Assembly: GCF_000721705.1 (NCBI RefSeq)
Contig: NZ_JOJL01000062.1
Location: 1-26,734 of the forward strand
Length of the DNA: 26,734 nucleotides
Direction: 5' to 3'
Origin: Actinoplanes subtropicus
Lineage (GTDB): Bacteria > Actinomycetota > Actinomycetes > Mycobacteriales > Micromonosporaceae
Positions 1 through 1,426 of the stretch are shown here, in pieces. Numbering within the stretch: the first letter of the stretch is position 1; every line of letters starts with the position of its first letter. The notes under the pieces were generated by a model, which was not told the origin of the DNA, searched no databases, and was given only the letters and a program-made list of their open reading frames with translations. The translations under genes and the position numbers were made by a program.

Positions 1-60
1 GGGTGGGGGCCGCGGGGGCCGCGGGGGCCGGGCTGGGGGCCGCGGGGGCCGCGGGGGCCG
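1..60. repeat. 30-bp tandem duplication of GC-rich 9-bp units inside the leuS-like gene
   Basis: Bases 1-30 and 31-60 are identical at 29 of 30 positions (only the third base differs). Each copy contains near-perfect 9-bp units of the GGGGGCCGC type. Both periods are multiples of three, so the repeat keeps the leuS reading frame and encodes alternating Ala-Ala-Pro. It reaches the window edge, so the full copy number is unknown. Confidence 0.85.
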
Positions 61-1426
61 CCGGAGCCGGGGTGGCGGCGCGGGTGGAGAGGCTCAGGGC
101 TCGGGTCAGGAAGCGGATCGAGCCGCCGGGGGAGACGTCGGCCCAGTCGATGTCGTCCTCGGGTGGGCCGGCGAAAATTATCGACACGCGGACCGCGTCG
201 ACGCCGTAGCGGTTCAGTTGGCCGGCCAGGTCGACGATGTTGCCCCTGGTCTTGCTCATCGCGGCGCCGTTCAGGAGCACCTGGCCCTGCGTGATCAGCG
301 AGCGGAACGGCTCGTCGAAGGCGATCAGGCCCAGGTCGTACAGGACCTTGGTGAAGAAGCGCGCGTACAGCAGATGCGACACCGCATGCTCCGTGCCGCC
401 GATGTAGTGGTCGACCGGGCGCACCCGCTCCGGGTCGAACGGGCCCTCCTCGTACGACGGATTCGGGTAGCGCAGGAAATACCACGACGAGTCGACGAAC
501 GTGTCCATCGTGTCGGTGTCGCGCTCGGCCGGCCCGCCGCATTTCGGGCAGTCGACCGCCACCCACTCCGCGGCCGCCGCCAGCGGCGACCGGCCGGGCG
601 GCGCCAGCTCGGCACCGCGCAACGACGGCAGCGAAACCGGCAGCTGATCGTCGGGCACCGGCACCTCGCCACAGGCCGGGCAGTGCACGATCGGGATCGG
701 GCACCCCCAGTACCGCTGCCGCGAGATCAGCCAGTCGTGCAGCCGCAGCCCATCGGAAGAGCGGCCGATCCAGTTGCGCTGCATGGTCAACACGTGCGAA
801 GGCCAGTGCCCTCGCAGCCGGTCGATGTCGTCCAGCAGCCGGTCCGCGTACTCAGTGATCTTGAAGAACCACTGGGTCAGCGACCGCTGCGTGACCGCCG
901 TGCCGCAGCGCTCGCACCGGCCGCCCACGACCTGCTCGTTCGCCAGCACCGTGCGGTCGGCCGGGCACCAGTTGACCGCCGCCTCCGCCCGGTACGCCAG
1001 GCCGCGCTCGAAGAACCGCAGGAACAGCCACTGCGTCCACCGGTAGTACGCCGGATCGCTGGTGTGCAGCCGGGTCCGCCAGTCGGCCGAGATCGCGTAG
1101 CGGCGCAGCGAGGCCGCCTGGGTCTCGACATTCGCGTACGTCCACTCCGCCGGGTGCAGCCCCCGCTTGATCGCCGCGTTCTCGGCCGGCAGCCCGAACG
1201 AATCCCAGCCGACCGGCTGCAGCACCTGGAAACCGCGCAACCGCCAGTACCGCGCGATGGCGTCGCCGATCGCATACACCTCCGCGTGCCCCATGTGCAG
1301 GTCGCCGGACGGATAGGCGAACATCGGCACGACGTAGCGGTCGACCTGGGAAGGCGAAAAGAGACGCGACGACTCCCAGACCGGTCCCCAGCGGTCCTCG
1401 ATTGCGCGGAAGTCGTAGCCCGTCAT
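1..1426 (-). CDS. leuS: Leucyl-tRNA synthetase homologue lacking the CP1 editing domain (3' end outside window)
   Basis: Class Ia aminoacyl-tRNA synthetase that would charge tRNA-Leu. 475 residues are visible and the C-terminus runs off the left edge. Seen: HMGH (the HIGH signature) at residues 44-47, a Cys-rich zinc module around 180-200, the SRQRYWG catalytic block near 235-241, the DSSWYFLRY and GGTEHA motifs, and MSKTRGN (the KMSKS loop) at 390-396. In normal LeuRS about 190-200 residues of CP1 editing domain separate NWIGRS from the DWxxSRQRYWG block. Here they are joined by only about five residues (S223-R228) in one continuous frame. The insert often found just before KMSKS is also absent. 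Residues ~452-475 are Ala/Pro-rich. The ATG at 1426 fits the family N-terminus, but no clear ribosome-binding site is seen. It lies 9 bp after a small gene in the hut operon, so it may be co-transcribed. Whether another, full-length LeuRS exists in the genome cannot be seen. Symbol used as family name only. Confidence 0.9.
   Translation of the reverse strand, partial: MTGYDFRAIEDRWGPVWESSRLFSPSQVDRYVVPMFAYPSGDLHMGHAEVYAIGDAIARYWRLRGFQVLQPVGWDSFGLPAENAAIKRGLHPAEWTYANVETQAASLRRYAISADWRTRLHTSDPAYYRWTQWLFLRFFERGLAYRAEAAVNWCPADRTVLANEQVVGGRCERCGTAVTQRSLTQWFFKITEYADRLLDDIDRLRGHWPSHVLTMQRNWIGRSSDGLRLHDWLISRQRYWGCPIPIVHCPACGEVPVPDDQLPVSLPSLRGAELAPPGRSPLAAAAEWVAVDCPKCGGPAERDTDTMDTFVDSSWYFLRYPNPSYEEGPFDPERVRPVDHYIGGTEHAVSHLLYARFFTKVLYDLGLIAFDEPFRSLITQGQVLLNGAAMSKTRGNIVDLAGQLNRYGVDAVRVSIIFAGPPEDDIDWADVSPGGSIRFLTRALSLSTRAATPAPAAPAAPAAPSPAPAAPAAPT

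Follow-up and report, generated by a model that had tools for sequence, protein, structure and literature searches.

Editing by the CP1 domain is regarded as a general property of leucyl-tRNA synthetases (LeuRS), the exceptions named in the cited parts of PMC7373986 and PMC3834818 being mycoplasma, parasites and organelles. The LeuRS of Mycoplasma mobile (3ziu) is a bacterial enzyme that naturally lacks CP1 and is said, in the latter source, to yield an ambiguous proteome; the same excerpts describe a parasite LeuRS with an editing-domain deletion and human mitochondrial LeuRS, neither of which has working CP1 editing. Accessory LeuRS are known as well. AgnB2 (5ah5), the LeuRS that provides self-immunity to agrocin 84, stands beside a sensitive LeuRS and has no leucine-specific domain, and three substitutions in it (T42, A102 and Q573) help confer resistance to TM84 (cited portion of PMC5059758). 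Duplicated LeuRS also occur in archaea: Sulfolobaceae LeuRS-I, whose CP1 is disrupted, and haloarchaeal LeuRS2 show no or little charging, and LeuRS-I binds tRNA without charging it (cited section of PMC9437257). In Anabaena, the duplicate threonyl-tRNA synthetase (ThrRS) T2 is editing-defective, and its errors are cleared in trans by the housekeeping copy T1 (cited part of PMC4787780). LeuRS without CP1 and accessory LeuRS are already known, each separately. Here we analyze a bacterial accessory LeuRS gene that has lost CP1.

Domain anatomy and paralogy of LeuRS2

The window, by which we mean the whole stretch of DNA analyzed, comprises 26,734 nucleotides of the soil actinomycete Actinoplanes subtropicus (genome G000) and starts at base 1 of contig C62. 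An earlier note, based on the letters of this DNA, had proposed that the minus strand encodes a LeuRS homologue with its entire CP1 editing domain deleted, uninterrupted by stops or frameshifts. In agreement with this, positions 2 to 1426 (minus strand) constitute a single open frame of 475 codons with zero stops or frameshifts. The open frame, TIGR00396 and alignments identify it as the first 475 codons of an accessory LeuRS, here named LeuRS2, from which the CP1 editing domain is absent. The 475-residue part scored 583 bits against TIGR00396 (leuS_bact; cut-off 548) and hence belongs to this family, and a 607-residue relative in genome G059 scored 654 bits.

The residues NWI (218-220) are followed by a connector of 10 residues, GRSSDGLRLH (residues 221-230; positions 737 to 766, minus strand), which takes the place of CP1 and leads into DWLISRQRYWG from D231. 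NWIGRS is thus located at residues 218-223 as had been claimed, but the distance from there to the catalytic block is seven residues and not about five. When aligned with Thermus thermophilus LeuRS, query residues 3-225 corresponded to residues 3-229 and query residues 215-385 to residues 405-579, with CP1 skipped between 229 and 405. With the CP1-less M. mobile LeuRS, the alignment continued unbroken across the junction (query 1-58 with 204-263). These alignments show that an editing domain of ∼190 residues, for which about 200 had been estimated, is missing. The window protein contains neither a CP1 with the TTRPDT and Asp motifs of bacterial LeuRS nor, among its Pfam matches, PF13603. It does contain the HIGH-type motif HMGH (residues 44-47; positions 1286 to 1297, minus strand), both zinc modules, the DSSWYF block and the KMSKS-type loop MSKTR (residues 390-394; positions 245 to 259, minus strand), so that the motifs earlier described as intact are indeed present. 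The leucine-specific domain is likewise absent at the position where we presume it to lie in these LeuRS, as it is from the other actinobacterial LeuRS of ∼830 residues among the aligned rows listed. Compared to CP1-bearing LeuRS2, CP1 is the sole part that the window LeuRS2 misses. Structure models, which were of moderate confidence (mean pLDDT 68.9 and 73.4, and below 50 around the KMSKS loop), add only that the predicted core is LeuRS-like. The model of the CP1-less protein P0025, which is 74% identical to the window protein, matched 3ziu_A with a TM score of 0.71 both ways; CP1-bearing LeuRS ranked higher.

LeuRS2 is truncated at the end of C62. The break falls in an Ala/Pro-rich linker (positions 2 to 79, minus strand) that joins the catalytic and anticodon-binding domains, and the 3′ part of the gene is located on contig C78. 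Using the C-terminal half of relative P0002 as query, the anticodon-binding and C-terminal part was found at the end of C78 (90% identical). The ends of C62 and C78 share an exact 15-base overlap inside the linker, their frames agree, and the gene order past the junction (rdgB, rph) is that of the relatives. The possibility that the window gene is a dead fragment without an anticodon-binding domain, which the earlier note had raised against its own reading, is therefore rejected.

An assembly artefact or frameshift as the cause of the CP1 absence, also considered at the time, is rejected as well: the frame is intact and a similar junction is present in 51 of the 239 LeuRS sequences collected, 43 of the 51 being distinct. 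Some CP1-less sequences lie on contigs of more than 10 Mb or in genomes assembled into one or two contigs. Among the 43 distinct sequences the connector measures 4-16 residues, with one of 49. CP1-less forms of LeuRS2 retain the core motifs, zinc modules, KMSKS loop, anticodon-binding and C-terminal domains, G110 being the exception, and the catalytic and zinc residues vary little or not at all among 27 CP1-less sequences.

The same genome encodes a full-length LeuRS on contig C21, in a 936-residue frame with the motifs FTTRPDT and DERD. This excludes LeuRS2 as the main LeuRS of the genome and bears out the suggestion that it is a paralogue; the two enzymes are of different types (about 830 versus 936 residues). 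A TIGR00396 search of 20 genomes revealed a CP1-less copy in 18 (the 14 CP1-less family genomes described below, two Promicromonospora, Antribacter and Nostoc), and a second LeuRS spanning the CP1 region in all 18. This second LeuRS is encoded by frames of 888-1132 residues in 17 of them and, in G357, by a frame of 711 residues truncated at a contig end. A CP1 domain supplied in trans had been a further concern. A PF13603 search detected no free-standing CP1 in any of 11 genus genomes, the window genome included; in these 11 the model matched the main LeuRS and, over a short stretch, a frame of 877-880 residues (valyl-tRNA synthetase, ValRS, in G000) and nothing else, and this explanation was rejected. 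To judge from size and PF00133 matches, contigs C55, C32 and C33 of G000 (loci L001-L004) seemingly encode two isoleucyl-tRNA synthetases (IleRS; frames of 1049 and 1035 residues) and two ValRS (877 and 867 residues).

Distribution, recurrent loss of CP1 and selection

We searched 354 genomes of the family for LeuRS2 (threshold E ≤1e-60). LeuRS2 was present in 31 of them, 14 of which are CP1-less (G000, G002, G004, G009, G011, G019, G033, G034, G059, G106, G110, G357, G380 and G390) and 17 of which have all or part of CP1. The CP1-less state was read from alignments continuous across the junction, and the presence of CP1 in G358 from a 495-base gap separating two match segments. Within what we infer to be the genus (Actinoplanes/Paractinoplanes, 67 genomes), LeuRS2 is present in 16, 11 of them CP1-less, and its absence from the other 51 indicates that it is dispensable. 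The genus assignment draws on eight CP1-less proteins of these genomes that have identical counterparts in the database search, several of which bear such names. Class-wide, LeuRS of the ∼830-residue type were matched in 197 of 394 sampled genomes (E ≤1e-180). Kitasatospora/Streptomyces LeuRS2 were considered in this search; the best identity was 71%, and therefore the matches are not those genes. Outside the class, the cyanobacterium Nostoc sp. FACHB-973 has a CP1-less LeuRS at a contig edge, with its N-terminus cut (L044, 47-1717), alongside a full-length LeuRS (888-residue frame).

To follow CP1 along the phylogeny, a LeuRS2 tree was built with the CP1 part removed, and a marker tree was based on the housekeeping LeuRS and RNase PH of the same 16 genus genomes. 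The LeuRS2 tree requires three changes of CP1 state, two of them forced by starred branches, and three changes were obtained in the 5-95% range of bootstrap trees; the marker tree requires three, all three forced. Grouping the 11 CP1-less copies, as a single loss in the genus would demand, was rejected (p-AU 0.000196). Since CP1 is present in the outgroups closest to the genus (P0032, P0040 and P0063), we read these changes as losses. In each of the 16 genomes LeuRS2 lies no more than 25 kb from rph, and vertical inheritance is therefore sufficient; the scatter of CP1-less genes inside the genus can be explained without their passage from one species to another. For a wider quick tree, 80 of the 239 collected sequences were chosen by hand and five (P0026, P0044, L045, L088 and L029) were dropped for a missing motif, leaving 75 rows. 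On this tree the CP1-less label requires eight changes, six of them forced by starred branches, bearing in mind that stars of the quick tree are weaker and that the Nostoc row is truncated, long-branched and of unsure placement. Promicromonospora/Antribacter and the G357 group make up two further CP1-less clades, which branch off at an unresolved fork adjacent to the clade holding the genus. Together these results show, as the main outcome of the analysis, that the loss of CP1 is recurrent within a lineage whose other members retain it, with about three losses among the 16 genus genomes and further ones elsewhere.

Shortened forms of CP1 were also found: those of G048, G043, G032 and G039 have 161-174 residues and both editing motifs, and that of G101 has 116 residues and no Asp motif. 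One gene near one site has lost CP1 repeatedly in free-living bacteria with large genomes, while shortened forms (116-174 residues) survive. This provides a natural series for asking when proofreading becomes dispensable, whether a paralogue can rely on a housekeeping synthetase for editing and whether enzymes of this kind are selected by inhibitors of the editing site. The repeated excision might itself be adaptive, in that an editing-free LeuRS beside a proofreading one was selected to escape an editing-site inhibitor or to allow controlled, conditional misleucylation; we put this forward tentatively, as a possibility that we incline to doubt.

Patchy presence, loss of CP1 and faster change could also be expected of a decaying relic of a horizontally acquired LeuRS. 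We calculated dN/dS with a Nei-Gojobori script for 13 hand-chosen pairs out of 120 possible, and obtained 0.18-0.32 for LeuRS2 and 0.15-0.28 for the housekeeping LeuRS. In the seven pairs in which both copies are CP1-less, LeuRS2 gave 0.19-0.32, similar to the housekeeping gene. This shows that LeuRS2 is under purifying selection. The dN of LeuRS2 exceeded that of the housekeeping LeuRS in 13 of the 13 pairs and LeuRS2 thus changes faster. In G110 (L169, 5476-7161, plus strand) a stop shortens the CP1-less LeuRS2 so that the C-terminal domain is gone, and this copy is probably a pseudogene in an otherwise conserved lineage. The G110 stop and the loss of the neighboring monooxygenase described below would fit a relic too, but the housekeeping-like dN/dS of the CP1-less pairs, the near invariance of catalytic and zinc residues and the clean, in-frame CP1 excisions all argue against it, and we give this explanation hardly any credence.

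Neighborhood of LeuRS2 and its possible roles

Neighboring genes were predicted with a simple frame caller and annotated in part. All genes of the group flanking LeuRS2 in the window are on the minus strand: the C-terminal 104 residues of a flavin monooxygenase, a remnant (1436 to 1750); hutH, encoding an aromatic amino acid lyase (PF00221; 1764 to 3299); and the rest of a hut-type group (3296 to 8851), with genes for a HutI-like amidohydrolase (frame 3296-5032), a HutF-like protein (4435-5727), a member of the M20 peptidase family (5724-6902) and urocanase (6899-8851). Farther along, the window contains a two-component system with response regulator and histidine kinase (9820-11872, plus strand), a MacB/FtsX-type ABC transporter (12985-15287, plus strand) and a LodA-like oxidase (LodA_N, LodA_C) whose frame also encodes a haem-oxygenase-like domain (21714-24674, plus strand); a flavoprotein near the latter (18980-19987, minus strand) could, we presume, be its LodB-type partner. 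No tRNA genes and no Rfam match were found in the window.

The neighborhood is conserved. Of the 16 genus genomes with LeuRS2, 11 have hutH adjoining the module, and in relatives such as G059, G032 and G043 the space between hutH and rdgB is occupied by a flavin monooxygenase of ∼440 residues and, tens of bases after it, LeuRS2. Five genomes without LeuRS2 were compared at this site. hutH and rdgB are separated by 46 bases in G057; in G026, G024 and G049 the spacing is 2.0-2.6 kb and neither module gene was matched there; and in G036 hutH lies outside the stretch compared. The closest solved relatives of the monooxygenase are the epoxidases MonCI and Lsd18/LasC. In 11 of the 16 genomes LeuRS2 has a complete monooxygenase gene (about 440 aa) as its neighbor, and the pair is found away from hutH and rdgB in G033, G011 and G106. 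This pairing, also apart from hutH/rdgB, suggests that LeuRS2 might supply Leu-tRNA or leucyl-AMP to a non-translational pathway, with the monooxygenase or the fused GNAT described below as partner, in which accuracy would be irrelevant. A precedent is SbzA, an IleRS homologue that uses Ile-tRNA for a secondary metabolite (cited section of PMC9437257), and the GNAT-LeuRS2 fusion with its eroded CP1 in G101 points the same way. However, of the other five genomes the window genome has a remnant, G002 has three pieces, and no monooxygenase was found in G004, G009 and G110; moreover, the monooxygenase is kept without LeuRS2 in G003 and G037, and when the 9-13 kb loci surrounding LeuRS2 in other genera were searched with tblastn, no monooxygenase relative was detected. 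The two genes, though linked, do not depend on each other, and a role in such a pathway is unlikely. Monooxygenase loss is seen in 5/11 CP1-less versus 0/5 CP1-bearing genomes (about p 0.1, one-sided, by hand), on which we base no claim of association.

Gaps of tens of bases separate the module from the preceding hutH in several relatives, and it may therefore be read with the hut genes. Such an arrangement would suit conditional mistranslation, in which an editing-free LeuRS raises isoleucine, methionine or norvaline at leucine codons during stress or histidine catabolism. The ambiguous proteome ascribed to M. mobile LeuRS would be a parallel, and CP1 is just what the window gene misses. Against it, the CP1-bearing LeuRS2 that this lineage has near the same site retain both editing motifs, so that low fidelity is not the shared function, and the window gave no Rfam match. 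We regard this role as very unlikely.

Loci of other genera offered a different type of neighbor. In G101 (L184, 5324-8089, minus strand) a single 921-residue frame encodes a GNAT domain (60-167) fused to LeuRS2 with an eroded CP1 that lacks the Asp editing motif. HIT-family hydrolases that are 59% identical are encoded divergently to LeuRS2 in two genera, in G244 and G133 (L177, 7972-8385, and L180, 8156-8620, both plus strand), and G133 also has a GNAT gene 1.7 kb from LeuRS2. In G357, the 9.3-kb contig with the CP1-less LeuRS2 carries a second class I synthetase, a ValRS of the PRK13208 type (L170, 63-2525, plus strand). Acetylation by GNAT enzymes can detoxify peptide-nucleotide antibiotics. 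HIT hydrolases can also detoxify these compounds, giving resistance (cited part of PMC7157772). The presence of HIT and GNAT genes beside LeuRS2 suggests defence against aminoacyl-nucleotide inhibitors, although both families are very common, and the fusion and the neighboring hydrolases may serve as leads to LeuRS-directed antibiotics of this class.

These neighbors bear on the possibility that LeuRS2 is a resistant target copy, sustaining translation when a natural inhibitor poisons the housekeeping LeuRS, in which case the removal of CP1 would itself defeat editing-site inhibitors. The difference in type between the two LeuRS and the sporadic occurrence (31/354) form the pattern of resistant synthetase copies such as IleRS2 (cited section of PMC9437257), and AgnB2, also without the leucine-specific domain, is an example of an accessory LeuRS with this job. 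Yet T42, A102 and Q573 of AgnB2, matched by counting from the HIGH and KMSKS motifs, correspond to P39, N99 and M390 in LeuRS2, which are ordinary residues and invariant over 27 CP1-less sequences. Resistance of the TM84 type is therefore not supported; another inhibitor is possible. The HIT and GNAT genes, of very common families, were found at 3/15 non-genus family loci with partly annotated neighbors, absence of the leucine-specific domain is general among the aligned 830-residue sequences, and the annotated neighbors in the window included no recognisable gene cluster for a LeuRS inhibitor. We consider a resistant copy rather unlikely.

The explanation that we favor, holding it about as probable as all else, is that LeuRS2 is a working accessory LeuRS that has no editing of its own and probably serves as a backup or bypass, the cell either entrusting proofreading to the housekeeping LeuRS or doing without it. 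LeuRS2 would activate leucine and charge tRNA-Leu, and would be incapable of CP1-dependent (post-transfer) editing. In the Actinoplanes lineage, a CP1-bearing actinobacterial LeuRS of ∼830 residues would have come to stand near a single chromosomal site, next to the flavin monooxygenase, and CP1 would afterwards have been excised at its two hinges in several lineages. Two circumstances, singly or together, may make the loss tolerable: the full-length housekeeping LeuRS (LeuRS1) would clear misacylated tRNA-Leu in trans, and LeuRS2 would account for only a small or conditional part of the charging. Most likely LeuRS2 would act as a backup or bypass when LeuRS1 is blocked or limiting. In favor of this explanation are the retained core, anticodon-binding and C-terminal domains, the second LeuRS spanning CP1 in all 18 genomes, the lack of a free-standing CP1 in the 11 genus genomes, the purifying selection, the repeated losses near one site and the Anabaena precedent. 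The stop-shortened copy of G110, the dispensability of LeuRS2 and its faster change relative to LeuRS1 count against a working accessory enzyme, as does the tRNA binding without charging of Sulfolobaceae LeuRS-I.

Comparison with known systems

Top-ranked matches in the open-licence literature included no actinobacterial CP1-less or second LeuRS, nor any accessory bacterial LeuRS lineage with repeated CP1 loss in free-living bacteria. The described systems each share part of the properties of LeuRS2. The Anabaena ThrRS pair may be taken, by analogy, as the nearest worked example of an editing-defective duplicate beside a housekeeping copy, but T2 is a dimeric, zinc-regulated class II enzyme and LeuRS2 belongs to class I. 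LeuRS is regarded as monomeric, and therefore the heterodimer mechanism of the Anabaena ThrRS would not apply; clearing in trans would need rebinding of the tRNA. Sulfolobaceae LeuRS-I and haloarchaeal LeuRS2 are likewise duplicates, but they are archaeal and charge little or not at all, and the C-terminal domain of LeuRS-I is divergent whereas that of the bacterial LeuRS2 is ordinary in sequence. The editing-deficient LeuRS of parasites and organelles differ in that they are described as the LeuRS of that parasite or organelle, LeuRS2 being an extra copy. The nearest accessory LeuRS with a known job is AgnB2, and like it LeuRS2 occurs beside a housekeeping LeuRS; AgnB2 has CP1 (two aligned blocks, 822 residues) and its three resistance substitutions, however, and LeuRS2 has neither. 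In anatomy the M. mobile LeuRS is the nearest, both enzymes having a short connector in place of CP1 and a preserved catalytic core. It is a mycoplasma enzyme, whereas LeuRS2 is encoded in an 11.3-Mb genome as an accessory to a full-length LeuRS.
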